From the NCBI GenBank assembly GCA_018335335.1, contig JAGXKG010000016.1:1-38337 (forward strand): a DNA stretch of 38,337 bases, in the 5' to 3' direction. Below, piece after piece: positions 2,881 through 24,034 of this stretch (the first letter of the stretch is position 1; each line of letters begins with the position of its first letter). The notes under the pieces were generated by a model. That model did not search any database. It saw only the letters and a list, made by a program, of their open reading frames with translations, and was not told the DNA's origin. A program made the translations under genes and the position numbers. The stretch comes from Candidatus Thorarchaeota archaeon (GTDB lineage: Archaea > Asgardarchaeota > Thorarchaeia > Thorarchaeales > Thorarchaeaceae).

Positions 2881-3040
2881 AATGGGAACTCCCGCATCCG
2901 GATGTTGAATCTCGTTAGAGTTAATATTTCTTACTACACTTTGGCTTAGAATGGGGCATACCAACTTCAAGTCTGTCTCTCGAGCCTCCAAAACCTATTT
3001 CTTGGGAAACATCACCACTCTATTTCCTGAGAGGTCCAAT
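2881..3040. promoter_or_regulatory. Divergent promoter region between the zinc-ribbon membrane protein gene and mutS
   Basis: About 160 bp separate the two preferred starts. An AT-rich element (TTAATATTT, about 2921-2929) is the best TATA-like candidate and reads acceptably on both strands; it lies roughly 40-50 nt before the minus-strand ATG. The plus side ends in GAGGT at 3031-3035, the ribosome binding site of mutS. No clear operator was seen. The start sites are inferred from sequence only. Confidence 0.4.
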
Positions 3041-5638
3041 TTGAAGAAACTCACACCTATGCAGAGACAGTATCTGGAGCTCAAAAGACAACACCAAGAC
3101 TGTTTGCTATTATTCAGGCTGGGCGACTTTTACGAACTCTTCAACGCTGATGCCGAAATCGCCTCAGAAATCCTAGACATTGTCCTGACATCCCGAGGTG
3201 AAGGTGTAGATAGTTGGCCAATGTGTGGTGTCCCACATCACTCAGTAGAGCAGTACATAGCAGAGCTGCTTGAAGCCGGGCATACCGTCGCCCTAGCAGA
3301 TCAAGTAGAGGATTCTTCAGAAGCAAAAGGACTGGTCCGAAGAGAGGTGGTACGAGTAATCACTCCAGGTACCGTGCTGGAGAGCTCGATGCTTGAGAGT
3401 AGTGCAAACAACTACTTGACCGCCATGGTTGTCCACGAGGGAATGATAGGGCTTGCCGCAGTTGATATATCTACAGGAGAGTTCATAGCAACCGAGTTTG
3501 AAGCTGAACCTGATAGTGAGGAGGTCATGAGTGAGCTCGCTAGGTTGAATCCGTCTGAGCTTCTGTTGCCTGAGTCCATGGCCGGTGACAAGATTATCAA
3601 GGATTTGCGAGAGGACGTAAAGAAGGTAGATTTCAGAGAGGATTTGGAGTTCTCGGCCAGAACAGCAGAGCGGGCCGTCAAGGAGCAATTTGGTGTAACA
3701 ACTCTTGACGGATATGGCCTCGCTGACAAGCCCGTTGCACTCGGAGCTGCCGGTGCTATCCTGGCGTATCTCTCCGAGGTACATAGAGGACAGAAGGCGA
3801 CCTTGACCGGAATCAGCACATACTCTATTCAGGACCATATGACAATTGATGCGATTACCCAGCGCAATCTTGAACTAGTCAAGAATGCTAGAGATGGGTC
3901 TACCCGCGGCACCCTTCTTTCCGTCCTTTCTGAAACAAGTACTCCCATGGGTCGAAGAAAACTCAAACAGTGGATGCTTCAACCCCTCATGGACAGTAGC
4001 AGTATCAATGAGCGACTTGATGCGGTTGAAGAAATTGCGAGATCTGCACTGGTCAGAAAGAATATTGCTGAGAAGCTCGACAAGACTGGAGATTTCGAGC
4101 GTCTTGTGAGCAGGATTGCATTTGGTACAGCCAATGCCCGAGACTTGGTCTCTTTGAGAACTGTTCTTGCCAAGATTCCCGAAATACGGGAGATTCTCCA
4201 GAGCTGTGATTGTTCTATTCTGCAATCAGCTGCTGACTCCATTGATGCACTTGAGGATTTGAGAAACACGTTGAAAGAAGCAGTTGTTGATGATCCACCT
4301 GCCACTGTGAAAGAAGGAGGAATAATCAAAGAGGGCTACGATGAGCAACTAGACTCCATGAAATCAGAGATAGCGGCAGACAAGGAATGGATCAGATCTT
4401 TGCAGGGTAAGGAGCGAAAAAGAACCGGAATAAAATCGTTGAAAGTTGGTTACAATAAGGTGTTTGGATATTATTTGGAGGTTACCAATGCCAATACTGA
4501 CAAGGTTCCACCCGAGTATGAACGGAAACAAACACTAACCAATTCGGAGCGATATATCACTCCAGAGCTAAAAGAGAAGGAAGCCACTGTTCTTGCTGGA
4601 GAGGAGAAAATCAATCAGCTGGAATACGAGCTTTATGAGGATCTGAGAACAAAAGTGAAAAAACTGGTCGAGCCACTACGAAGGAATTCACAGGCTATTG
4701 CCCTTGCAGATGTCATTGTCTCATTAGCAGAAGTGGCAGTCAAGAGAGGATACAATCGACCGAAAATAGTGGAGGACAAAACCATCCGCGTGGTTGAAGG
4801 AAGACATCCTGCAATGGAAGTGGCTCTGGGTAGAAATGAATTTGTACCAAACAGCCTATCAATGGGCGAAGACGGAACTACGCTGTTGATTGTAACAGGG
4901 CCTAACATGGGAGGGAAGAGTACTTACATGAGACAGAATGCCCTTATTGTCCTTCTTGCTCAGATGGGGTCCTTTGTTCCTGCCAAGAGAGCCACAATAG
5001 GACTGGTCGATAGAATCTTCACAAGGGTGGGCGCTTTTGACGACTTAACAGCCAGCCAATCCACGTTCATGGTGGAGATGATCGAAACCGCGAATATCCT
5101 CAACAATGCCACCGAACGGAGCCTCGTTATTCTCGACGAAGTTGGTCGCGGTACAAGTACCTATGACGGTATGGCTCTTGCATGGGCAGTAGCTGAAGAG
5201 ATTGCCAAGATGAAGACACGAACACTCTTTGCCACTCATTATCATCATCTGACTCAGATGGCTGAAGACTATCATGGTATCAAAAACGTACATACCCTAG
5301 CAAAAGAAGCGGGCGACGATATTGTTTTTCTCTACAAGGTAGTTGGAGGGCCTACTGACGAAAGCTATGGTGTGCATGTGGCATCCTTGGCAGGAGTACC
5401 TGAGCCTGTAGTAAGCAGAGCAGCAGAAATGCTGGTAAGATTTGAGAATGAAAAACCCGTGGCAGTGACCGGAGAATCAAGCGAAGAACCTGTTGTGAAG
5501 CAGATGAGTCTCGAACCATTGACTGTGGAAGATCCGATTTTAGAAGAAATCAAGCATATGGATTTAGACAGAACAACACCCATAGATTCACTTCTTGCTC
5601 TAAGAGAATTTCAAGAAAGAATCCGTGATAGGGAATAA
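3041..5638 (+). CDS. mutS: DNA mismatch repair protein MutS (bacterial MutS1 type)
   Basis: Recognises mismatches and small loops and recruits MutL. I place the start at TTG 3041 (865 aa, usual length for MutS1), because GAGGT lies 5 nt upstream and MutS proteins normally begin just before the MQRQYLELK-like segment; the frame is open back to ATG 2951. The mismatch-reading F-Y-E motif is at residues 30-32 (GDFYELF). The ATPase has Walker A GPNMGGKST near residue 620, the DDLTASQSTF segment, Walker B LVILDEVGRGTS and FATHYHH. All of these are intact, so the enzyme should be functional. The C-terminal tail carries QMSLEPL (5501-5521), where bacterial MutS proteins have the sliding-clamp motif, followed by the usual short helical domain (PILEEIKHMDLDRTTP). 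A phosphodiesterase gene follows after 51 bp. Confidence 0.96.
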   Translation: MKKLTPMQRQYLELKRQHQDCLLLFRLGDFYELFNADAEIASEILDIVLTSRGEGVDSWPMCGVPHHSVEQYIAELLEAGHTVALADQVEDSSEAKGLVRREVVRVITPGTVLESSMLESSANNYLTAMVVHEGMIGLAAVDISTGEFIATEFEAEPDSEEVMSELARLNPSELLLPESMAGDKIIKDLREDVKKVDFREDLEFSARTAERAVKEQFGVTTLDGYGLADKPVALGAAGAILAYLSEVHRGQKATLTGISTYSIQDHMTIDAITQRNLELVKNARDGSTRGTLLSVLSETSTPMGRRKLKQWMLQPLMDSSSINERLDAVEEIARSALVRKNIAEKLDKTGDFERLVSRIAFGTANARDLVSLRTVLAKIPEIREILQSCDCSILQSAADSIDALEDLRNTLKEAVVDDPPATVKEGGIIKEGYDEQLDSMKSEIAADKEWIRSLQGKERKRTGIKSLKVGYNKVFGYYLEVTNANTDKVPPEYERKQTLTNSERYITPELKEKEATVLAGEEKINQLEYELYEDLRTKVKKLVEPLRRNSQAIALADVIVSLAEVAVKRGYNRPKIVEDKTIRVVEGRHPAMEVALGRNEFVPNSLSMGEDGTTLLIVTGPNMGGKSTYMRQNALIVLLAQMGSFVPAKRATIGLVDRIFTRVGAFDDLTASQSTFMVEMIETANILNNATERSLVILDEVGRGTSTYDGMALAWAVAEEIAKMKTRTLFATHYHHLTQMAEDYHGIKNVHTLAKEAGDDIVFLYKVVGGPTDESYGVHVASLAGVPEPVVSRAAEMLVRFENEKPVAVTGESSEEPVVKQMSLEPLTVEDPILEEIKHMDLDRTTPIDSLLALREFQERIRDRE

Positions 5639-12835: not shown

Positions 12836-14647
12836 ATGGGCGAAATTCGGGTCTTAAGCGAGGATACCATTTCGCTTATTGCCGCAGGAGAGGTTATCGA
12901 AAGCCCCGCTTCGGTTGTAAAAGAGCTAATCGAGAATTCACTTGATGCACGAGCTGATAGGATAACAGTAGAAATAGAGAGGGGTGGAGTTGATAGAATT
13001 CAGGTTTCTGATAATGGTATTGGCATTCTTAGAGAAGACCTGCCCCGTTGCTTGGAGCGATATTCTACGAGTAAAATACGGAATCAGGAAGACCTGGAAG
13101 CGATATCAACATACGGATTCAGAGGAGAAGCTCTTTCAAGCATTGTTGCCGTCGCGGATGTGAATATCAAAACAAAACGTTCTGGAGAGGAATTTGCCTA
13201 CGAGATTTCAGCGAATAAGAACAAAATCTCAGAAATAAAAACAACCAGTAGACCTGTTGGGACAACAGTAAATGTGAGCAATCTCTTTCAAAAAGTGCCA
13301 GCCAGGAGAAAGCATCTTGATGGAATCAGAGCCGAAAGTCGGAAAGTGACAGATGTTGTTAGACAGCACGCAATCATCAGAAATGATGTTGGATTCAAGC
13401 TGCTTAGGGATGGCAACACTATACTGGATTGTCCACCAAATCAAAGCACGAAAGATCGAGTATTATGTCTTCTCGGGTCAGATATAGCTGCAGCAAGTAC
13501 CGAAGTAGAGTTTTCGGAGAATAATATCCGAATAACTGGTTTTGTAGTTCATCCACCACATTCAAGGGGAAATAGGGGTAGAGAATACATATCAGTAAGG
13601 CGGAGACCAGTCAATAGCGAGAAACTTGCTTCTGCCATCGAATCTGCCTATGGAAACCTACTGATGAAAGGCAGATATCCAATTTGTAACATAAACATAG
13701 ACTTGGAACCGCATCAAGTAGACGAAAACATTCACCCAAACAAACGTGAAGTCAAAATCTGGAATGCTACGGCAGTTCTCAAAGTGGTTCGAAAGGCTGT
13801 AGAGATAGCTCTTGATAAGAAGGAGAGCACAACTGTTCCAACAGCACAAAAAGAGATACAGGTTACTGATTCTACTCGATCAAAGGTTATTTCTGATATT
13901 GATTCTAAAGGAGCTGAGAAACAGCAAAATTTCGCAAGAGCAGCGCCTCTTCTTGAACAGATGTCGTTGGAACCTCTTGATGATTCACCATCCGAAGCAA
14001 AGGAAGTAGTAGCTGGCGTGTTCAAAGTTCTTGGACAGATCCACCAACTCTACCTTCTCTTCGAGGTGGAAGATGGGCTTCTCATAATAGATCAACATGC
14101 CGCTCATGAACGAATCCTGTATGAGCAACTGCAAGAGGAAGTGAGAACAGGACCAAGTTCGGTACAACAACTTCTAGAACCCATTGTCTTGGAAATGAGC
14201 AAGGAAGATATCGGTGTCATGCTAGAACGGAAAGAGACTATTGAAACCCTAGGCTATAGCTTGGAACGCTTTGGTGAAAGGGAGATTCTTGTCTCAACCA
14301 TTCCTGATATCTTAGGGAAAAGAGCTTCGAAGGAAGAATTAGTATCCCTTGTTGATAGAATTCTTGATATCGATGAGAAATACGGAGCAGAAAACTTCGA
14401 GGATGCACTGCTTAAGGTTACGGCTTGTCATTCAGCAATTCGCGCAGGAGAGTATCTCAACAAGAAGGAAGCCAAGGATTTGCTCCTCAATCTTCTGAAT
14501 ACGAAAAACAAGTACAATTGTTGTCATGGAAGACCTTCCATGATGCTTCTCTCCAAAGCTACCCTTGACAAAGCGATTGGTAGAAAGGGGCCTGAAGCAA
14601 TTCTCAGATATATGGCACGACATGGTACGGAACCGGAGCGAACCTAG
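12836..14647 (+). CDS. mutL: DNA mismatch repair protein MutL with endonuclease motif
   Basis: Couples mismatch recognition by MutS to strand incision. The 603-residue protein has the GHKL ATPase at the N-terminus (ELIENSLDA, DNGIGI, YGFRGEALSSI), the transducer domain (VSVRRRPVN-like strand, NIHPNKREVK), a linker of about 70 residues, and the dimerisation/endonuclease domain. The metal motif DQHA(X)2E(X)4E is intact from Asp419 (DQHAAHERILYE), as are ACHSAIRAG and CCHGRP, so it should be a nicking MutL like those of bacteria lacking MutH. The linker contains QMSLEPL (13958-13978), the same heptapeptide as the MutS tail. ATG 12836 has GAAGGTG about 6 nt upstream. Probable operon with the amidohydrolase. 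Confidence 0.96.
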   Translation: MGEIRVLSEDTISLIAAGEVIESPASVVKELIENSLDARADRITVEIERGGVDRIQVSDNGIGILREDLPRCLERYSTSKIRNQEDLEAISTYGFRGEALSSIVAVADVNIKTKRSGEEFAYEISANKNKISEIKTTSRPVGTTVNVSNLFQKVPARRKHLDGIRAESRKVTDVVRQHAIIRNDVGFKLLRDGNTILDCPPNQSTKDRVLCLLGSDIAAASTEVEFSENNIRITGFVVHPPHSRGNRGREYISVRRRPVNSEKLASAIESAYGNLLMKGRYPICNINIDLEPHQVDENIHPNKREVKIWNATAVLKVVRKAVEIALDKKESTTVPTAQKEIQVTDSTRSKVISDIDSKGAEKQQNFARAAPLLEQMSLEPLDDSPSEAKEVVAGVFKVLGQIHQLYLLFEVEDGLLIIDQHAAHERILYEQLQEEVRTGPSSVQQLLEPIVLEMSKEDIGVMLERKETIETLGYSLERFGEREILVSTIPDILGKRASKEELVSLVDRILDIDEKYGAENFEDALLKVTACHSAIRAGEYLNKKEAKDLLLNLLNTKNKYNCCHGRPSMMLLSKATLDKAIGRKGPEAILRYMARHGTEPERT

Positions 14648-14762: not shown

Positions 14763-15170
14763 ATGGCCGGCACAACTTGGTGGATAGCTAAGGAATACCT
14801 GAAGAGATTGGAAATCAACTTCGAAGAGCACGGTAAGAAGACCTTCAGTCTATTTCCAGCTGCTCGCACAGAAACACAAGAAATTGAGGTCTTCCCGGGC
14901 AAACAATGGATAACACTGACTACCAGATTAGCTGATTTATCAGGTCTCGACGAGAGCGAACGTCTCGTATTTTTTGAGCGGCTTCTCAAAGCAAACGCCA
15001 ACCTAGCAGAAGTGAATTTTGGCGTTGACAAGAAGGGCTACCTAATGATTCGTAACATAATCCCAGTTGCAGGCATAAGCTTCGGTTCTTTCAATTCCAC
15101 ATTCAAAGCACATCTTGTCGGTGTGGAGTTTTTCAAAGAGGATCTTTTACCAGATATAGAGAATCAGTGA
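14763..15170 (+). CDS. Small YbjN / type III secretion chaperone-like protein
   Basis: A 135-residue soluble protein. The order of elements (helix TTWWIAKEYLKRLEINFEE, strands FSLFPA, QEIEVFPGKQWITLTTRL, helix ESERLVFFERLLKANANLAEVNFGVDK, strands GYLMIRNIIP, then a long final helix) resembles the alpha/beta fold of the YbjN and CesT-like chaperone families, which bind other proteins. This is recognition by pattern only and no catalytic residue is expected. No partner is suggested by the context. The ATG at 14763 is preceded by ACAGGATGAA, a weak AGGA. It is convergent with the giant surface protein gene. Confidence 0.6.
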   Translation: MAGTTWWIAKEYLKRLEINFEEHGKKTFSLFPAARTETQEIEVFPGKQWITLTTRLADLSGLDESERLVFFERLLKANANLAEVNFGVDKKGYLMIRNIIPVAGISFGSFNSTFKAHLVGVEFFKEDLLPDIENQ

Positions 15171-15202: not shown

Positions 15203-15237
15203 AAAAAAAAAAGAGAAAGAAGGGGGAGAATCCCCCT
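15203..15237 (-). terminator. Hairpin plus T-tract terminator of the giant surface protein gene
   Basis: On the minus strand, 9 nt after the stop of the surface protein gene, a perfect 7-bp stem (AGGGGGA at 15221-15227 with TCCCCCT at 15231-15237, 3-nt loop) is followed, after a pyrimidine stretch, by ten consecutive T (A-run at 15203-15212 on plus). This is the layout of a bacterial-style intrinsic terminator. In archaea the T-tract is normally the main signal, so the hairpin may help or may be an RNA processing site. The run of A on the plus strand makes it a poor terminator for the convergent gene. Confidence 0.75.
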
Positions 15238-15246
15238 GTATTTATT

Positions 15247-18200
15247 CTAGCTTCTTCGGCGCCTGATCAGCACGATAATGGCTATGAATGCCATTACAGC
15301 TCCACCCACAAGTAACAGCAACATAATAGGTGAACTAGGCTCTTCACCTACCACGTACGAATTAATGATAGACAGGACTTCTCCAGAGGGGGTGAAGACA
15401 TGGACCTGGTAATAGACTTCCGTGCCTTCTGGATAACCTGGAATCTCTCCAACGTAGTGGTTGTTTGAATCTTCAGACATTGGAGAAATCGAGTTCAACT
15501 CGGTTGAGCTCGTACCGTAATGAAGCTCAACCTTGTCAATTGGCACTTCATTTAATATGTCTACGCCTATAGTTACAGGTTCGTTGTGCTGCGGTACCCT
15601 GGGACTCACACTAAATGCACCAAATTCGATACCCTCCATACCGGAATTCGACACATAACTGACGAAAACAGGGTCTTGATAGACACTGTAGCCCTCCCAC
15701 TCGGGGAAGCCAATTGTCACATAGTACATATTGGAGCTGAATGTCCATGCTGTGGCTGAACGGCCCGAACTTGATTCAAATGCGGATCGGAATGTCCCGA
15801 GCGGAGTCGTATGGCTAACCACCTCGTATGGAGCTGTGGTATTCTTGCTCCAATCGTAAGTGACACCACCCATAATCATCTCTGCAAAACGAGCACCTGA
15901 AGTTTCGAACTCGAACGTCTCAGAGCTCACTGTCTGTTCGTTACCCGAAAGCGTTCCGTTCGCCTTGAATGCAAAATCGGACATCGACACTTCAGCGAGG
16001 TAATTCAAACCAAGAGACTTATTCTCCAGGTTATCACGACCGCCTATCATGTCTACTGACCAGTCACCTACAGTGTTGTCAACCTTGAGATCAGCCCAGT
16101 TGTTGGTTGCATCATCGGTCTCATTAACATGGCCTTGGAAGTGCACCAAGAAGGACAGTTCTTCAACCGTCACTTCGGTTGGCCGCTCATCGAAGGTTCT
16201 GAAATCTGAACCCTGTTGAACATCACTGTACCAACCCCAATAACCGCCCATGGTGTAGGGATAGACAGTTCCATTGATGTCCTCGAAGGTAACACCCCAT
16301 GTAACCTCATCTGTGAGATTCACACGCATGTGACCAGTGTCATTGAAGTTGCCGAATCTCTCGCCAGGCGTGACAAAGGATACATTGGCAACAGATTTGG
16401 GCATCAAATAGTGGCTGAGTTCACCGCTACCTGCATCAGTAAGATCGACATCCATCTCACTATTGTTGTTCACGTCCTCCCAGATTAGGAGACCACTGTA
16501 TTCGTAGTGCATGCCGATGTTTAGGTAGTGTTTTACATCATCTACAACTGTCGAGACGCCATAGTCTTGACCAACACCAAAGGATAACCAAGTCCATGTC
16601 TGCTCATTGGAATCAATCCAATCATAGCCTTTCTCTTCAGCCTCTGCAACGATGTCAGCCCATGTGACATTCTTCGCCATCCAGGCAATATCCCAGTAGC
16701 CCGGCTTTGGCTCACCTTCGTCTGTTCGAAGTGTACTATTGATGTTGTCCCACTCGGTCTGATTGACCAGTTCCATGGTGTCAGCATCATACCAGTAGAA
16801 CGTCTGGTTCCACTCGTAACTCCAAGTGAAGGTATCCAGACCCATCCAAGACTGCAGGTGCATCTCATCGCCATACTGGGTTGCATTAGGCTCCCAGTCA
16901 ACACCAACCCACATCTTCTCATATTCGTGAGTCCAAGAGTCGGTGGAGCAGTATTCCTCTCTGACGTAGTATTGATCATCAGAGGTGTCAAGGTTACCGT
17001 CTAAATCTACTGCACCATTCTCGGGGTTCGTTGTCCATTTCTTGACGCCCCACATACCCCATTCGGGTGTACCAATGACAATGTCGTAGATGTTCTTGTA
17101 GACAGCGCTTTCGATTGGCTGAGGACCATAAACTAGGTCGTAACCCCAGCGTTCTCGCATCCTGTAGATGTTCTCCTTGGAGGCATACGCTGTTACCTCT
17201 GAACCATCATAGGTGAAATTGTACATCTCATGTGCACTATTAATCTCTACATAGAGATCACTGCTGCATGTTGCATTATGGACATAGTAGACGTCTTTCC
17301 AGTACCCTTCCCACTCGAATAGATAGGTCTCACCCAAGAAATCGTAGTTATCTGTGCCTGTAGTCTCATTGTAGTAGACCATAACTAAGTGGGTATCTAG
17401 CACTGGTAGCTCCTCATAGTTGTCCAACACTATCTGTGAACCGTTCAGCATCTCATAGTAGTGATATGTTACGTTTTCATTTTCATACCACATGGGCCAC
17501 TCATTAAGCGAGTAGAATACGTCTCCATAGTAGTCATACTCGTATACTTGGAGAAGTGTGGTCCAGTTGAGAATCCAAGTGGTACCATTTGTCAGAATCA
17601 GCTCGTTGGAACTCCAGTAGGTATAGTTTACAAGACCCGTCTGCTCGAAAAGCAGACTGCCATTGTATGTGCCCATCGGAGCACTCCAACCTGCTGATGT
17701 CGGATTCCAGATGTGGGTACCGTTTGCAGTTGTATGCTGAGGAGTGGATTTCAGTAGCTGGTAAGTGTCACTACCTATGTCCACGAAGTGGTCGTAGGAC
17801 ACATTGTACACAGGATACCAGGTATTGTTGATTGATACCGATTTCGTAGTGGGTAAAACTCCACCAGTACTCACCTTCTCATTCAGTTGATATTCATAAT
17901 CAGCATTAGCACCAGGATATGGCATCTCATGCTTAACACCATCAAGTTCAGTAAACCAGAACTTGTGTGTCTCCCAAGTAAGGAGCTTGGCAGTTGAGCC
18001 GTCGTATTCCGCCTCAAAATAACGCTTAGGCCACGAGACTTTATACCACTGCCCATCTATTGTGGTGTAGTGATAGCCATCAGTATCATTATACTCGAGG
18101 CTGTACAGGTTTCCATCGATGTCAGTCATGTAGTAAGAGCTGGTTCTGCTGTCCCATCTCCAGTCCTCTGCTAGCTCAAGCACGTTGCTTTCACCATATC

Positions 18201-21024
18201 GGACTATCCAACCTCTGTTATCACGGTTGAATTCAACTTTGTCATAGTACTCAATCTGGACGTTGCTACTATAATCTGCATAATCGTCCCAGCTAGTACC
18301 TTGATGAAGTACACCATCGATATCTACCCAGCTGTAGTAGTACTCTCCTCCGTAGTTCCACCCATGATGATATTGCATTGCAGTCAGGAATGATTCACCG
18401 GTGCCAAGAGTGACATTATAGATGTGTATTGTTTCATCATATGTCACATAAACCATAGTTCCATTGACGAGTTCATATGCATATACATTCTTGTCGGTCT
18501 CAGGATCGTAGTGGTCATACAACAGGATGTTCTCGTATGTGTTTCCACTCCATGAATCATAGGTCTCATGAACCTCGATGGGTAGCTTCTGCCCATCAAT
18601 CATTATATACGGCGAGCTGCGTCCCAGTAGGAACTCATCGCCAGTCCGAGCACAGAGTGTGTCGTTCTTGAACGCAAGCTGAAGTTCGGGTTTGTCAATA
18701 TAGACTCGGTCGCCTCCGTGTTCAAACGAATAGACCCAGTCACGATCCCAACTCTTGACCTTGTGCTGGCCATAGTCGCTGGAATAGTCCTCATACCAGG
18801 TGTCATTCATGAATGCGAAGTTCCACCAGTAATTGGTTTCAGGAACATTCTCAGACATGTTTACCAACCATGACACATAGAGGTCGCCTCCATCAGTCCA
18901 TGTAGAGAAGTTTGAAGTCATACAGAAATCAGAGGTTACCTTGGTAGCAGAACTGCGATGGTTGATGTACTCTTCTTGCCACTGCCCGGTTTTCTGGTTG
19001 TAGTACCACCATGCCCAATGCCATCCTTCTATCTCCTTCCATTGCCACTCAGTGTAGTTTCCGTATACCCAGTCCCACGTGTTAGTGGTTGAATTGTAGA
19101 CGTAATGCCAACCAGTAACGTTAACCTTCACGTAGTCCTCGTAAGTTCCATATGTGTAATTCTGCTTCTCTGTGAAATTGAATGCACTAAATACGGGAGT
19201 ACCATTAATATCATAGTCGATTGTGTAAATCAACCGTGACCAGCGTGACTCATTCTGAGTCCAGTAGCCATCGCTTGCTTCGAGGCTGAATTGTGCGCCA
19301 TCTATGTCATCAGCTATAGAGCCACCACCCTGAAGTCGGCCTTTAACCATGAAGTCTTGGCCCTTCTCAACCGCAAACATCCAGTCGCTTGGTGAGCGAC
19401 CGTCAGCAGTCAAGATTTTTGCAAGTGTTACAGGGCTTTCAATGGTTATTTCTTTGGCCATCTCATATTCTTGCCAAGTTTGACGGGCTGTCTCTCCATA
19501 AGTGTCGGCCCAATACCGATTACCTTCAGGCCCCATAACCAAATCATTGAATCGGAAACCCGAATACTGATCCGTCTTGGGCATTTTCTCTGTAAAATGG
19601 CCTACAAAATCTACACTAAATGCTGTATCAGTCTGTCTTGTGGTGCATAATGATGTATTAAGTTCATACAGAATCGGCAAATCCGCGGGTATAGGTTCAT
19701 AGACAGTTATCTCTCGGTTGTATTCGCCTTCAACGTAGTGATCGTATGGATAACCCCAGTAGGTATAACCATAGTAGGTTTCCCAAGTGCCACCATTCGT
19801 TTCATTGTACACATAGAAAAGCTGTCTTTCTACCCAGCGGCTTTCATTAACTACTTCCCAAGTCTGGGTGTCTTCGTCCCATGTTTCATTGAGCCAAGTC
19901 ACATTAACCTGGTCAAACGTGCCAATATCAACCCACTTACGCTTCTTGTACTCGCCATAAACATCGTCGACATACGTCACCTCAAGACTCTCATTCCAGA
20001 CGTAGGTTCCCAATGATTCGTCATATGTCCAGCCGCCATAATCGGTAATGACCTCTCGATGCCAACCAGTAGCATTAACCCAGGTATCAATACTGCTGGG
20101 CATTCTGAAACCAAGCTGAACATAGCTTGGGGTATCGCCAGTAATGTTGAAACGCATGATGAAATCTGTCTCTCGGCTTACAGAGTACAGCGAATCGCCT
20201 TCTAGGTCGACCTTTTCTAAGGTATAAGAACCACCTTTAGACCAGCTCCAGGCTTCAGAAGCAGGCATACCTACAGCAATGCCGCGGAATTCATATCCAG
20301 AGGCATATCCATAGGAGCCGATACTGTTATAGTCGGTATCCATGACATTCATGTGGAGTTCGTAGAGTCCCAATGGGGCATCAGAAGTGAACTTCACAGC
20401 GAAATTGGCGTAGTATGCACTTGTGTCGCTGTGATTGGAGCAGTCATCAACAACTAAATCAATGAATGAGGGTAACATTCCTCCGTCTTCTTCACTCTGG
20501 TTATACTGGCTGCTGTATGCAGACCAAGGATCTCCCCAACCTTCAGCACGGAAAGTCATGCCAAAATCGGCTGAGAAATTCCAATCTGGTGTCATATACC
20601 AGCCATTAATCCTCACTTCGCTGAGATTTTGTCCCTCTGTGAATATATTTTTGGGAATTTTTGCCTGGAAGGTTAGAACCTCTCCCACCTCAGCATAGCT
20701 GTCCTCAGTAACTTCGCTTCCGTTTTCGTGGAAAACCTTGAATTCCGGACTTGGTCCGAAAAGCCAATTCTGATTTTCCCATGTCCATTCGTCGCTTGTG
20801 CTATTCTTGTCGCTATCCCAGTGGACATAAGTACCATTGTTAGGCTGTTCTGGATAACTCTCATTCTTCCCAGGATCATCCTGAGAGAATGTATAGGTTA
20901 CCGGAGAATCAGGTTGACCAGATGGAATTCTAGTCATACTTGAACCAGCATAAGCAAATGATACCATGAACAAGAGAATAGCAATCGTAGAAAGTAGCAT
21001 ATGTCGTCTATTCTTGTGTAGCAT
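15247..21024 (-). CDS. Giant Trp/Tyr-rich surface protein with signal peptide and C-terminal membrane anchor
   Basis: A 1925-residue extracellular protein of no family I recognise. A signal peptide covers residues 1-26 (cleavage probably after FAYA). The C-terminus has a single membrane helix followed by RRRRS, giving an outside body with a short cytoplasmic tail. Just before the helix is an Ig/FN3-like domain of about 90 residues (NEPVTIGVDILNEVPIDKVE to EVYYQVHVFTPSGE). The body is very rich in Trp (about 90 by hand count, near 4.7%), Tyr, Asp and Asn, with many N-glycosylation sequons (NVT, NYT, NGT, NET). DG-containing beta-hairpin-like segments recur. EDVNNNSEMDVD resembles a calcium loop. 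Cys are few. A surface-layer, adhesin or glycan-binding role is possible; none is demonstrated. ATG 21024 has AGGGG upstream. Confidence 0.88.
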   Translation of the reverse strand: MLHKNRRHMLLSTIAILLFMVSFAYAGSSMTRIPSGQPDSPVTYTFSQDDPGKNESYPEQPNNGTYVHWDSDKNSTSDEWTWENQNWLFGPSPEFKVFHENGSEVTEDSYAEVGEVLTFQAKIPKNIFTEGQNLSEVRINGWYMTPDWNFSADFGMTFRAEGWGDPWSAYSSQYNQSEEDGGMLPSFIDLVVDDCSNHSDTSAYYANFAVKFTSDAPLGLYELHMNVMDTDYNSIGSYGYASGYEFRGIAVGMPASEAWSWSKGGSYTLEKVDLEGDSLYSVSRETDFIMRFNITGDTPSYVQLGFRMPSSIDTWVNATGWHREVITDYGGWTYDESLGTYVWNESLEVTYVDDVYGEYKKRKWVDIGTFDQVNVTWLNETWDEDTQTWEVVNESRWVERQLFYVYNETNGGTWETYYGYTYWGYPYDHYVEGEYNREITVYEPIPADLPILYELNTSLCTTRQTDTAFSVDFVGHFTEKMPKTDQYSGFRFNDLVMGPEGNRYWADTYGETARQTWQEYEMAKEITIESPVTLAKILTADGRSPSDWMFAVEKGQDFMVKGRLQGGGSIADDIDGAQFSLEASDGYWTQNESRWSRLIYTIDYDINGTPVFSAFNFTEKQNYTYGTYEDYVKVNVTGWHYVYNSTTNTWDWVYGNYTEWQWKEIEGWHWAWWYYNQKTGQWQEEYINHRSSATKVTSDFCMTSNFSTWTDGGDLYVSWLVNMSENVPETNYWWNFAFMNDTWYEDYSSDYGQHKVKSWDRDWVYSFEHGGDRVYIDKPELQLAFKNDTLCARTGDEFLLGRSSPYIMIDGQKLPIEVHETYDSWSGNTYENILLYDHYDPETDKNVYAYELVNGTMVYVTYDETIHIYNVTLGTGESFLTAMQYHHGWNYGGEYYYSWVDIDGVLHQGTSWDDYADYSSNVQIEYYDKVEFNRDNRGWIVRYGESNVLELAEDWRWDSRTSSYYMTDIDGNLYSLEYNDTDGYHYTTIDGQWYKVSWPKRYFEAEYDGSTAKLLTWETHKFWFTELDGVKHEMPYPGANADYEYQLNEKVSTGGVLPTTKSVSINNTWYPVYNVSYDHFVDIGSDTYQLLKSTPQHTTANGTHIWNPTSAGWSAPMGTYNGSLLFEQTGLVNYTYWSSNELILTNGTTWILNWTTLLQVYEYDYYGDVFYSLNEWPMWYENENVTYHYYEMLNGSQIVLDNYEELPVLDTHLVMVYYNETTGTDNYDFLGETYLFEWEGYWKDVYYVHNATCSSDLYVEINSAHEMYNFTYDGSEVTAYASKENIYRMRERWGYDLVYGPQPIESAVYKNIYDIVIGTPEWGMWGVKKWTTNPENGAVDLDGNLDTSDDQYYVREEYCSTDSWTHEYEKMWVGVDWEPNATQYGDEMHLQSWMGLDTFTWSYEWNQTFYWYDADTMELVNQTEWDNINSTLRTDEGEPKPGYWDIAWMAKNVTWADIVAEAEEKGYDWIDSNEQTWTWLSFGVGQDYGVSTVVDDVKHYLNIGMHYEYSGLLIWEDVNNNSEMDVDLTDAGSGELSHYLMPKSVANVSFVTPGERFGNFNDTGHMRVNLTDEVTWGVTFEDINGTVYPYTMGGYWGWYSDVQQGSDFRTFDERPTEVTVEELSFLVHFQGHVNETDDATNNWADLKVDNTVGDWSVDMIGGRDNLENKSLGLNYLAEVSMSDFAFKANGTLSGNEQTVSSETFEFETSGARFAEMIMGGVTYDWSKNTTAPYEVVSHTTPLGTFRSAFESSSGRSATAWTFSSNMYYVTIGFPEWEGYSVYQDPVFVSYVSNSGMEGIEFGAFSVSPRVPQHNEPVTIGVDILNEVPIDKVELHYGTSSTELNSISPMSEDSNNHYVGEIPGYPEGTEVYYQVHVFTPSGEVLSIINSYVVGEEPSSPIMLLLLVGGAVMAFIAIIVLIRRRRS

Positions 21025-21240
21025 GTTAATCTAGATCCCCTACGCTTTCCCATGAACATTCAATCTGTGTAAGCTTGCGTACGTTCAAGCATAAGGCAAC
21101 AAAAGCCTAGATTGACGCATGGCGTAGCGCGGCATTGTTCATACTGTATTGAATTTCCTATTCATATAATATAAAACAAGCTTGCATAAATGCCGAAGAA
21201 AAGCAAGCATCTGTCAACCGCGTCTGCCAAAATCTGAGCT
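21025..21240 (-). promoter_or_regulatory. Promoter and long leader of the giant surface protein gene
   Basis: The best archaeal TATA box on the minus strand is TTTTATATTATATG (plus 21164-21177), placing the transcription start roughly 120 nt before the ATG, an unusually long leader for an archaeal gene. The leader contains AGGGGATC near the start codon and an imperfect hairpin around 21069-21092 (GCTTG/CAAGC). The octamer AAGCTTGC occurs at 21071-21078 and again at 21178-21185 next to the TATA box. Confidence 0.5.
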
Positions 21241-21241
21241 A

Positions 21242-21268
21242 AACCCCCTCTGATTGAGTGAGGGGGTT
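21242..21268 (-). terminator. Perfect 9-bp GC-rich hairpin downstream of the SpoIIM-domain gene
   Basis: AACCCCCTC (21242-21250) and GAGGGGGTT (21260-21268) are exact complements around a 9-nt loop. The hairpin begins 39 nt after the stop of the polytopic membrane protein gene on the minus strand. There is no strong T-run after it (ATTTT appears about 10 nt later), so it could be a terminator, an mRNA 3'-end stabiliser, or both. The G5/C5 stem core resembles the hairpin after the surface protein gene. Confidence 0.6.
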
Positions 21269-21307: not shown

Positions 21308-24034
21308 TCATAAAGTCCTAGCCATCATTACCACAATAGGTGTTACGTATGCTTCGATTACAGAAGCTAGAAGCAAGAAGAATACAATCAAAACATAGCT
21401 GCGCCATGTTCTCATATCTCCCAACAATTCACGTGTCTTAGAAGGAAACTCTTCCCAGTTCTCCTGCATAACTAGCGGGGACAAATTCCGAGCAATACGA
21501 ATAGATATTGCTGCAGCAAGCAAGAAGGCAGGAATTTCTATTATTGCATGAGGGAGGATGCTGGCGAGGAATATGATTAGACCACCATTTGGAGCATTCA
21601 GATAGATGGCACTGAGACCACCTAGAATGAGAGCTGTTGATAGCACCTCAGATATGGCTAGAGACATCAAGCTGAATCGTATGTAGTTCAGTAGCGGATC
21701 ACCAGGGTTCTTCGTCGCAACCATGTAGCCAGCTGTGAGTATGAGGGGGAGGACAATGAGTGCAATGAGTACGAACTGATCATCATAAACGAAGTACTCC
21801 ATTGCAATCAGGGTAGCAGTTAGTGGAACCCACCACACCGAACCTTCAGAACCATAGAAACCTCGGACCAAGAAGGCAAGCAAGTATATGGCCAATAGAA
21901 CAGCATAGATGATTGCTGCTCTCAGGCCGAGCTGTGCTGCAAAACCCCATGGCCAAGAATTTGGCTGGAATAATCCCAGAGAAGCATCTCTGAAGGTCCA
22001 GAGGTATGCCAGCCCCGCAGCAGCAAAGATACCAACTATGCTTGCAATACCAATCTTCCGTTGCTCGGATTCTTTCTGAAGGGCAACGAGCCATAGTATG
22101 GCGGACCAGAATACTGGACCAACTAGCAGCATGAGCAATGTCCGAATCACATTGTGTTCTGCAATTATTGGAAATATGCTGCCGCTACTACTTAAGACGA
22201 ATGCTTCTAGAACCGCTTCTAGTCCATCAGCGGCACCAATTTCGTTGAAGAGGGTAATGATGTAGCCTTCAAGCAATCCTGGATCCATTATAGCACCAAT
22301 GAAATACACTCCAATTAAGGAAGCAAAAACACCACCAAAGAACATCAGGACGGTATCTGTCACGTCCTTCTGATGGACACTCAGCAGAGGCCCGGTCTTC
22401 TCACCTTTGGAAACCTGCCACTTCTCGCGAAATTCGAAGAAGTATAAAATGAAAAGTACGGTTGCAATGTAGATGGGAACAAAAACAATGAATTGGTATG
22501 CAACCCGCAGGAGATAGTCAGCTTGTATCGGGGGAGATATTATTGGGCGTAATCGAAAGAATACGTGTGAAGCCACCCTTGCAGGAGTGGGGCCCACAAG
22601 CAGCAAGTAGTCCATTCCAGGTAACAAGAACCACACAGCAAATGCTACAGTAAGAGCAGAGAAGAAGGCAAAACCTTCCTTGCCATATCCGGTACGACGT
22701 AATATGTAACGCCCCAAAACGCCAAGGAGAATCATGCTAGCAAATGGAATAAGCAGCATCATCAAGGTCCAAATTATTGGAGCGATTAGTACACCGTTAT
22801 TCGGTGCATTGTTCAGCAGAGTCACTACAACACTATCAACCATCCTAGGAAGGAGAGCGAATACACCCATCTGAGTAAATGAGAAATGAAGACAGACCAT
22901 CATGACAGCGCCAACAAATGCACCTGTCACCAATCCGCCACTGGCAACAGCAGATATCACATTCTTTACAGCATCACTCCAATCAAATGCCTGTGCCTTC
23001 TCTCTGAAACGCCGTATCGAATCAAAAATCCGTTTGTAAAGAAGAACAGAGAAGTCCTCTGCCAACGGGAATATCAAAATAACAAACACAATGGGAGGGA
23101 AGGCAAAAGCCAATCCAATTGCATAATATCCAACCAGAGAGCCCAATGTACCAGTCTGAATGCCGCGGATAACATCAAGCCCAATAGTGAATAAAGACCA
23201 TAGCAGATTAAGTCGGAAGAACCATCCAAGCACCCCTTGCATCATCTCGTCACCTAGATTGCGGTCGCCAAGCCTCAGACCAGCGCCCTTGGCAATTCGA
23301 TTGGAACCGGGGTATCCGAATCTGTAAATCCATGTCAGGAAAATAAGAACACCTTGTACATAGGGACCAATACCGCCACTCATGTACACAGGAATAGAGG
23401 GAAGTATGGTAACAAGACCAATAATGAGATAGTCTTTCCATGATTCCCGCCAAGCTCTTTCCTGGACCTCAGGATCAAGAGGCTGAGGCTCGACACCTTC
23501 AAAATGAATATGATCTAGTCTATCACCAAGGCCGGAGTACTCATCTGTTTCGGGTTCTTTTCCTGTCAGCCGTTTGATGAGATTACTGAATTTTCGCTTC
23601 AGAGGGTCCTGTAATGCTAGCTTAGCAATTAGTACAAGCTGACCAAAAATGACAGCAACAAATGAAACCATAATCCACGTCAAGAAATCCTGCAATGCAT
23701 AGGTAAAATGGAATACGAAGTCAGTGATCAGTATCCAGTACAAATCTCCAGGATTTACCGCGGGAGTGAAATAGGAAGGAAGCCCTGAGGTGCCCGCAAG
23801 CCAGATGTTTAACAGAAAGAATGTGAACACCTTGACTGCCATCATTATGACAAAAGCTTCAATCAATCGATTTCGTCGTTCTCTGAAAAACACCAGATAG
23901 AAGAGGGCAACGATGAGCGCAGGAATGAATTCAATTAGTATTGTTAGCGGCGTGATGCTTACCATTGACAAACGGCTCCATTGACTACTAGGACGTGTCT
24001 TTAGTGATATCCTAGTGATAAAGGTTAGTTGCAT
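21308..24034 (-). CDS. Large polytopic membrane protein with C-terminal SpoIIM-like (DUF95) domain
   Basis: Up to 908 residues with many hydrophobic helices (close to twenty by eye). The last ~140 residues fit the SpoIIM/DUF95 integral membrane family: NYIRFSLMSLAISEV, the signature LPHAIIEIPAFLLAAAISIRIAR, a cytoplasmic helix, and the final helix with VIEAYVTP. The remaining ~760 residues have no family I recognise; one soluble loop of about 60 residues (LIKRLTGKEPETDEYS to PEVQERAW) interrupts the first third. SpoIIM-like proteins in prokaryotes take part in membrane or envelope remodelling, and the archaeal roles are not known. The longest form starts at ATG 24034; ATG 23965 (MVSITPL) has GGAG about 10 nt upstream and is a good alternative. 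It shares the TTTTAAA box with divergent ferritin. Confidence 0.8.
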   Translation of the reverse strand: MQLTFITRISLKTRPSSQWSRLSMVSITPLTILIEFIPALIVALFYLVFFRERRNRLIEAFVIMMAVKVFTFFLLNIWLAGTSGLPSYFTPAVNPGDLYWILITDFVFHFTYALQDFLTWIMVSFVAVIFGQLVLIAKLALQDPLKRKFSNLIKRLTGKEPETDEYSGLGDRLDHIHFEGVEPQPLDPEVQERAWRESWKDYLIIGLVTILPSIPVYMSGGIGPYVQGVLIFLTWIYRFGYPGSNRIAKGAGLRLGDRNLGDEMMQGVLGWFFRLNLLWSLFTIGLDVIRGIQTGTLGSLVGYYAIGLAFAFPPIVFVILIFPLAEDFSVLLYKRIFDSIRRFREKAQAFDWSDAVKNVISAVASGGLVTGAFVGAVMMVCLHFSFTQMGVFALLPRMVDSVVVTLLNNAPNNGVLIAPIIWTLMMLLIPFASMILLGVLGRYILRRTGYGKEGFAFFSALTVAFAVWFLLPGMDYLLLVGPTPARVASHVFFRLRPIISPPIQADYLLRVAYQFIVFVPIYIATVLFILYFFEFREKWQVSKGEKTGPLLSVHQKDVTDTVLMFFGGVFASLIGVYFIGAIMDPGLLEGYIITLFNEIGAADGLEAVLEAFVLSSSGSIFPIIAEHNVIRTLLMLLVGPVFWSAILWLVALQKESEQRKIGIASIVGIFAAAGLAYLWTFRDASLGLFQPNSWPWGFAAQLGLRAAIIYAVLLAIYLLAFLVRGFYGSEGSVWWVPLTATLIAMEYFVYDDQFVLIALIVLPLILTAGYMVATKNPGDPLLNYIRFSLMSLAISEVLSTALILGGLSAIYLNAPNGGLIIFLASILPHAIIEIPAFLLAAAISIRIARNLSPLVMQENWEEFPSKTRELLGDMRTWRSYVLIVFFLLLASVIEAYVTPIVVMMARTL

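Follow-up and report, generated by a model that had tools for sequence, protein, structure and literature searches.

The closest described counterparts of the protein analysed here are the S-layer glycoproteins of other archaea. In Haloferax volcanii, csg is a single-protein coat that is attached directly to the membrane and has a Thr-rich spacer, and S-layer proteins of archaea commonly consist of Ig-like domain arrays held by a TM or lipid anchor (PMC8640222). The outer protein of the Sulfolobus SlaA/SlaB system, SlaA, has 1,424 aa and carries 27 confirmed glycans (PMC10903991). The S-layer families of Methanosarcina and Methanocaldococcus (PF07752 and TIGR01564) are archaeal envelope proteins with beta-sandwich domains. 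As for the Asgard archaea, thorarchaeal S-layers are sparsely characterised (PMC8559796), and one lokiarchaeal isolate may possess an S-layer (PMC7015854). A literature search found no description of an Asgard coat protein like the one presented below, although preprints were thinly covered and a recent account may have escaped it.

The protein concerned is a giant surface glycoprotein of Candidatus Thorarchaeota, which seems to work most like a csg-type anchored S-layer glycoprotein, yet lies outside every S-layer family tested. With csg it shares predicted secretion and N-glycosylation, stacked Ig-like beta domains, and a C-terminal TM helix followed by a basic tail (PMC8640222). In most of its orthologues the consensus also has a Thr-rich linker ahead of the TM helix, recalling the csg spacer, whereas the copy in the window lacks it. 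The two proteins differ in length (827 aa for csg vs 1,925 aa), share no detectable sequence homology, and differ in that the giant protein has no PGF motif; it has in addition a long-strand sandwich module, long hairpins, and DG/NGT repeats. Csg belongs to a lattice-forming class, and the giant protein is likened to it on the basis of sequence and models. The likeness to SlaA/SlaB is that of a large, beta-rich outer protein, rich in N-glycosylation and kept off the membrane (PMC10903991), but here canopy, Ig stem, and TM helix would all lie in one chain, with no coiled-coil anchor and no homology. The C-terminal anchor resembles that of the PF07752 family of Methanosarcina, but neither PF07752 nor TIGR01564 was found in this genome.

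Database searches agree with this picture. The giant protein matched nothing in Pfam or NCBIfam at E values up to 1, 27 of its orthologues gave only scattered chance matches, and no Pfam or NCBIfam model of a known S-layer family was matched by any of them. A profile search of the PDB with the giant family returned no matches; the best match to a PDB sequence, a hemerythrin (E 0.39), was rejected as chance. By Foldseek, no convincing S-layer structure was recovered: csg (7ptp, E 0.034) and SlaA (8qox, E 0.069, probability 0.02) both stayed below a probability of 0.1. The statement of the earlier note, made from the letters alone, that the protein has no recognisable family therefore holds for Pfam, NCBIfam, and PDB sequences, and what it had named as contrary evidence, a clear relationship of the body to some known S-layer or adhesin family, did not appear by sequence, profile, or Foldseek.

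Sequence features of the giant protein

The window, that is, the whole 38,337-nt stretch analysed, is contig C16 of a 2.94-Mb assembly of 176 contigs that is 97% complete. The giant gene lies at 15247-21024 on the minus strand and encodes 1,925 aa; orthologues are conserved. The coordinates first proposed were correct, but the coding strand is the minus one; the plus strand is full of stops over the same interval. The protein contains 91 Trp (4.7%), against the roughly 90 first estimated, 159 Tyr (8.3%), and 6 Cys. Acidic residues greatly outnumber basic ones (D+E 15.3% vs K+R 5.5%), and the mature ectodomain has a mass of 217 kDa and an acidic pI of 4.2.

Residues 1-26 (20947-21024, minus strand) read as a signal peptide, with an n-region containing KNRR, a hydrophobic core, and an AYA motif. 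At the other end, residues 1899-1925 (15250-15330, minus strand) form a single C-terminal TM helix with an RRRR tail, which leaves only about five residues in the cytoplasm. The type I anchor and outside location claimed earlier are thus supported, and secretion with surface retention, as in the S-layer class, is indicated by the same two elements. The residues preceding the TM helix read GEEPSSPI and contain no PGF motif. There is therefore no sign of archaeosortase processing, and assignment to the PGF-CTERM (Haloferax) type of S-layer protein was rejected.

The abundance of sequons noticed at first sight is real: 56 N-x-S/T sites were found, about three times the 18.9 +/- 3.8 expected from 2,000 shuffles (maximum 31). 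Many are almost universal across the orthologues, among them N175 (23/23), N616 (23/24), N622 (23/23), N870 (25/25), N1146 (25/25), N1380 (27/27), and N1668 (27/27). An STT3/AglB oligosaccharyltransferase is encoded in the same genome, so that the sites and the enzyme for N-glycosylation of the S-layer class are both present. Codon usage is uninformative on the abundance of the protein, since in this genome not even the genes for ribosomal proteins stand out from background.

Domain architecture and predicted structure

The body of the protein was modelled with AlphaFold2 as two overlapping halves, both of which are all-beta: residues 30-1110 (pLDDT 77.7, pTM 0.48) and residues 1040-1905 (pLDDT 80.9, pTM 0.53). 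At these pLDDT values the predicted domain folds can be trusted with fair confidence, but their mutual arrangement is uncertain, since the body was modelled as fragments and pTM is only about 0.5.

A search for hidden repeats by self-alignment, as had been advised, detected two kinds. First, an Ig-like unit is duplicated: residues 185-409 (19798-20472, minus strand) match residues 450-707 (18904-19677, minus strand) by hhalign with a probability of 98.3, both being all-beta in the model. Each copy contains a long beta hairpin, the first at residues 311-366 (19927-20094, minus strand; strands 282-306 and 311-337 of the fragment). Second, a region of DG/NGT repeats extends over residues 805-1290 (17155-18612, minus strand), within which residues 848-914 match 1140-1204 (hhalign probability 97.7). 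The 27 DG/NG turns of the protein are concentrated there, in agreement with the hairpin-like DG segments described in the earlier note. The model shows regular short strands in this region, with block pLDDT mostly 82-94 until about residue 1100, and the run of short hairpins spans some 500 residues, from about 770 to 1280.

Residues 1320-1800 (15625-17067, minus strand) form the module that defines the family, a predicted beta sandwich with strands of 16-27 residues (mean pLDDT of the fragment 80.9). It is the most conserved block of the protein and is common to all family members in the tree. It is followed by a membrane-proximal stem at residues 1800-1897 (15334-15627, minus strand), which is devoid of Trp and of sequons and which Foldseek aligns with FN3/Ig domains over 110-130 columns; the Ig/FN3-like stem postulated earlier is thus supported by both sequence and model. 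The top matches of the C half as a whole (ROS1, xanthanase, and viral Gc) were rejected as homologues, with TMq of about 0.1. The all-beta models, the duplicated unit, and the Ig/FN3 matches together give the serial beta-sandwich or Ig-like domains that mark the S-layer class.

A predicted aromatic-faced hairpin arm

The second long hairpin, at residues 610-676 (18997-19197, minus strand; strands 581-615 and 620-647 of the fragment), accounts for the nine Trp within about 34 residues that had drawn attention to this protein. This stretch was confirmed at residues 649-683 (18976-19080) on the minus strand, and corresponds to the second strand of the hairpin (649-676) plus the residues immediately beyond. 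Clusters of at least nine Trp were reached in 12 of 2,000 composition-preserving shuffles (0.6%). The clustering is thus modest by composition alone, and conservation is the stronger argument: Trp is among the most conserved residues of the giant protein (69% mean identity), and the positions of the stretch are kept in about 40 orthologues and paralogues (W682 in 36/36, W670 in 33/36, and W660 in 29/33).

With the register taken from the modelled turn (i+j=1293), aromatic residues occupy 16 of 28 positions on one face of the hairpin vs 4 of 28 on the opposite one (p=0.0018). Across 40 members of the family, their frequencies on the two faces are 0.53 vs 0.14. Predicted cross-strand aromatic pairs are Y643-W650, Y641-W652, W639-Y654, Y631-W662, Y625-W668, and Y623-W670. 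The sequons N616 and N622 lie on the face opposite the aromatics, but N635 does not. The one-sided Trp/Tyr ladder is conserved into the tandem paralogue described below. It is claimed for this hairpin only, since no such bias was found in the first one (p=0.74).

In having aromatic pairs across strands on one face, the arm resembles Trp-zipper-type beta hairpins. The latter are peptides of about 12 residues, whereas this predicted hairpin, an arm of a giant protein, has about 30 residues per strand. A one-sided ladder of this kind can pack on a partner surface, whether another domain or another subunit, or stack on sugars. The earlier note had suggested carbohydrate or lipid contacts, or a self-assembling beta-rich stalk. 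As modelled, one-faced cross-strand pairing suits a role in structural packing or assembly at least as well as carbohydrate or lipid binding. Of the stalk, the beta-rich nature stands, but its diffuse aromatic character does not, the Trp stretch being one face of a long hairpin arm.

Genomic locus and transcription signals

Gene order around the giant gene is conserved in Thorarchaeia: a gene for a SpoIIM-domain protein, in some loci a tandem paralogue, the giant gene, a convergent 135-aa gene, and then genes for MutL and an amidohydrolase. In the window, the upstream neighbour (21308-24034, minus strand) encodes a 908-aa polytopic membrane protein that is far longer than the domain model, the SpoIIM domain (PF01944, 1.6e-15) forming only its C-terminal 100 residues or so. 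Synteny of this gene with the giant gene was seen in L033, L036-L038, L040-L043, and L045. The 135-aa gene (14763-15170, plus strand), which adjoins the giant gene in most thorarchaeal loci, resembles CesT/Tir-type chaperones only at a level below threshold (E 0.014). The mutS and mutL genes (2951-5638 and 12836-14647, plus strand) lie close together, and are kept near the giant gene in Thorarchaeia.

Five loci carry the tandem paralogue, of 2,265-2,468 aa, after the SpoIIM gene and before the giant gene (L033:2954-9748, L036:1658-8968, L040:2440-9702, L041:2292-9695, and L045:2944-9741). It is a full-length homologue of the giant protein (28-30% identity) with additional C-terminal Ig-like copies related to the giant's stem, and it gives weak matches to CBM_56, GlgE N/S, and DUF7743. 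It is absent from the window and from L037, L038, L042, and L043, in which the SpoIIM gene lies directly beside the giant gene.

Immediately past the giant stop codon, the sequence contains an intrinsic-terminator-like element, GGGGGATTCTCCCCC, with a T-rich run (15203-15236, minus strand). On the other side, a TATA-like element, TTTTATATTAT, lies about 142 nt upstream of the ATG (21166-21176, minus strand) and is near-identical in the same-genus genome L004; its position would imply a leader of roughly 115 nt. A further terminator-like hairpin separates the SpoIIM gene from the giant gene (21241-21266, minus strand). Given its own TATA-like element and the flanking terminator-like hairpins, the giant gene probably forms a transcription unit by itself, with a long leader. 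The leader region (21025-21240) is near-identical in two species of the genus and could contain a regulatory element.

Distribution and phylogeny

Full-length orthologues of about 1,930-1,985 aa, with 39-88% identity, occur across Thorarchaeia. In named records, relatives come almost all from Candidatus Thorarchaeota, a few bearing the label Lokiarchaeota or simply archaeon. Among 227 Asgard genomes scanned, 47 belong to the thorarchaeal family, and about 40 of these gave matches to a long or a short form (E<1e-50); two fairly complete ones (G015 and G022) gave weak matches or none. This lineage-wide presence comes with low copy number, as in the S-layer class, the genome of the window having the giant gene and one split short paralogue. 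The latter, of about 1,200 aa, appears as an N-terminal part on C130 (L003 and L103) and the module with TM helix on C161 (L002), probably owing to an assembly break. Two orthologues (L073 and L074) have a single in-frame stop, TGA and TAG, respectively, in otherwise long frames, which could reflect pseudogenes, assembly errors, or recoding.

Beyond Thorarchaeia, long relatives with 28-31% identity over 1,740-1,830 residues were found in the Asgard families f28 and f12 and in one genome of f2. The short form (1,000-1,250 aa) has retained the N-terminal region (residues 58-350 or so), the 1320-1800 module, and the TM helix, the middle being missing; it occurs in Thorarchaeia and in families f3, f9, f12, and f4. 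A maximum-likelihood tree built on the module that both forms possess places long and short ones apart at 100/100, and in it thorarchaeal orthologues, tandem paralogues, and short forms each form a single clade. The simplest reading of this tree, whose root is only a midpoint, is an old duplication that preceded the split of several Asgard classes.

Membership in an Asgard family defined by the 1320-1800 module is supported by a significant profile match, and the giant protein is a member of a real, conserved, uncatalogued family of Asgard surface proteins. The new archaeal class proposed earlier is thus indeed uncatalogued, but it is no lone oddity: the family extends across Asgard archaea, keeps its length and synteny, and has paralogues. 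Separately, a family of thorarchaeal proteins of about 450 aa shares the C-terminal end of the module (of the type FPEWxGxxVxxDPVFV). Its members L080:478-1824, L081:1818-3179, and L082:507-1859 have a signal peptide, a TM helix, and the terminal motif FPEWNGxRVQQDPVY, and Pfam found no family in the L080 member.

Functional interpretation

We think it rather probable that the giant protein serves Thorarchaeia as an S-layer-like coat protein and is the main membrane-anchored glycoprotein of their envelope. This reading follows from the export signal, the TM anchor, the dozens of conserved glycosites, the near-fixed length, and the presence throughout Thorarchaeia, and from an all-beta model with Ig-like duplication, in line with the Ig arrays of archaeal S-layer proteins (PMC8640222). 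It is also favoured by the Thr-rich linker of most orthologues, the acidic ectodomain, the presence of STT3/AglB, the signals for single-gene transcription, the conserved locus with its tandem paralogue, and the absence from the genome of the two known archaeal S-layer families tested. Against it, no solved S-layer protein was matched by sequence, or convincingly by structure, G015 and G022 gave weak matches or none, and the arrangement of the modelled domains is uncertain. By analogy, an irregular coat is equally possible instead of a lattice, since cultured Lokiarchaeum ossiferum has no ordered S-layer and bears complex irregular surface proteins (PMC9834061).

In such a coat, the Ig stem and TM helix would raise the body off the membrane, with the long-strand sandwich module (1320-1800) and the N-terminal Ig-like pair forming a canopy. 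The aromatic hairpin arm (610-676) would pack on another domain or on a neighbouring subunit and link molecules laterally, and the exposed faces would be covered by glycans. The SpoIIM-domain neighbour may be a membrane partner, and the tandem paralogue, with its longer multi-Ig stem, may supply a second component of the coat in genomes that have it. A wider proposal, which we offer tentatively and would not yet expect to hold in full, is that the family of the 1320-1800 module represents an ancestral Asgard coat protein, an archaeal S-layer lineage of its own, with no relationship to csg, SlaA, or the types of methanogens, in which the long/short duplication came before several Asgard classes diverged and molecules are tied by Trp-ladder hairpin arms.

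A different function was considered, that of a large, membrane-anchored, non-lattice adhesin whose aromatic arms and hairpin repeats would recognise carbohydrate on partner cells or on organic particles, for instance in syntrophic attachment. Exposed surfaces rich in Trp and Tyr are typical of carbohydrate-binding sites. For the N half, Foldseek ranked highest the Ig-like domains of PrgB (8e-7) and antigen I/II (9e-5), Gram-positive adhesins anchored by LPXTG. The likeness is limited to serial Ig-like domains: the superpositions are poor (TMq 0.09, rmsd above 30 A), the anchor differs, and there is no sequence relationship, and an adhesin of this type was rejected. CBM_56 is matched by two of the five tandem paralogues (best 5.9e-6), but this match belongs to the paralogue and not to the giant protein. 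Moreover, a near-fixed length, a single locus, presence in most thorarchaeal genomes, and conserved glycosites point to a housekeeping coat, unlike a variable adhesin, and the Trp residues are highly conserved, not variable as at a ligand face. We therefore regard an adhesin as unlikely.

Still less probable is a two-part envelope, in which the tandem paralogue of 2.3-2.5 kaa would provide the canopy or a long stalk and the giant protein would be its partner, similar to SlaA/SlaB in division of labour only. The adjacency of the two genes and the extra C-terminal Ig domains of the paralogue, which suggest stems of unequal length, speak for it, but both proteins are full-length homologues, unlike SlaA and SlaB, and the arrangement is not general, since the window and four other loci lack the tandem copy. 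Finally, a surface receptor or scaffold acting in membrane remodelling with the SpoIIM-domain neighbour is very improbable, for although archaeal SpoIIM homologues have a predicted role in membrane remodelling, some being located near S-layer genes (PMC5898192), and the synteny is conserved, a terminator-like hairpin separates the two genes, the giant gene has its own TATA-like element, its product has a cytoplasmic tail of only about five residues, and no enzyme domain was found in it with Pfam or NCBIfam.

Implications for Asgard cell envelopes

If the predicted geometry is correct, an aromatic hairpin as long as this one would be structurally unusual. The reading of the giant protein as a coat is our inference, while the family itself is real, conserved, and uncatalogued. 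The cell covering of Asgard archaea bears on how the archaeal ancestor of eukaryotes might have formed protrusions and touched its partners. A conserved and glycosylatable coat candidate in Thorarchaeia, to which proteins of other Asgard families are related, makes the question of the thorarchaeal envelope directly testable.
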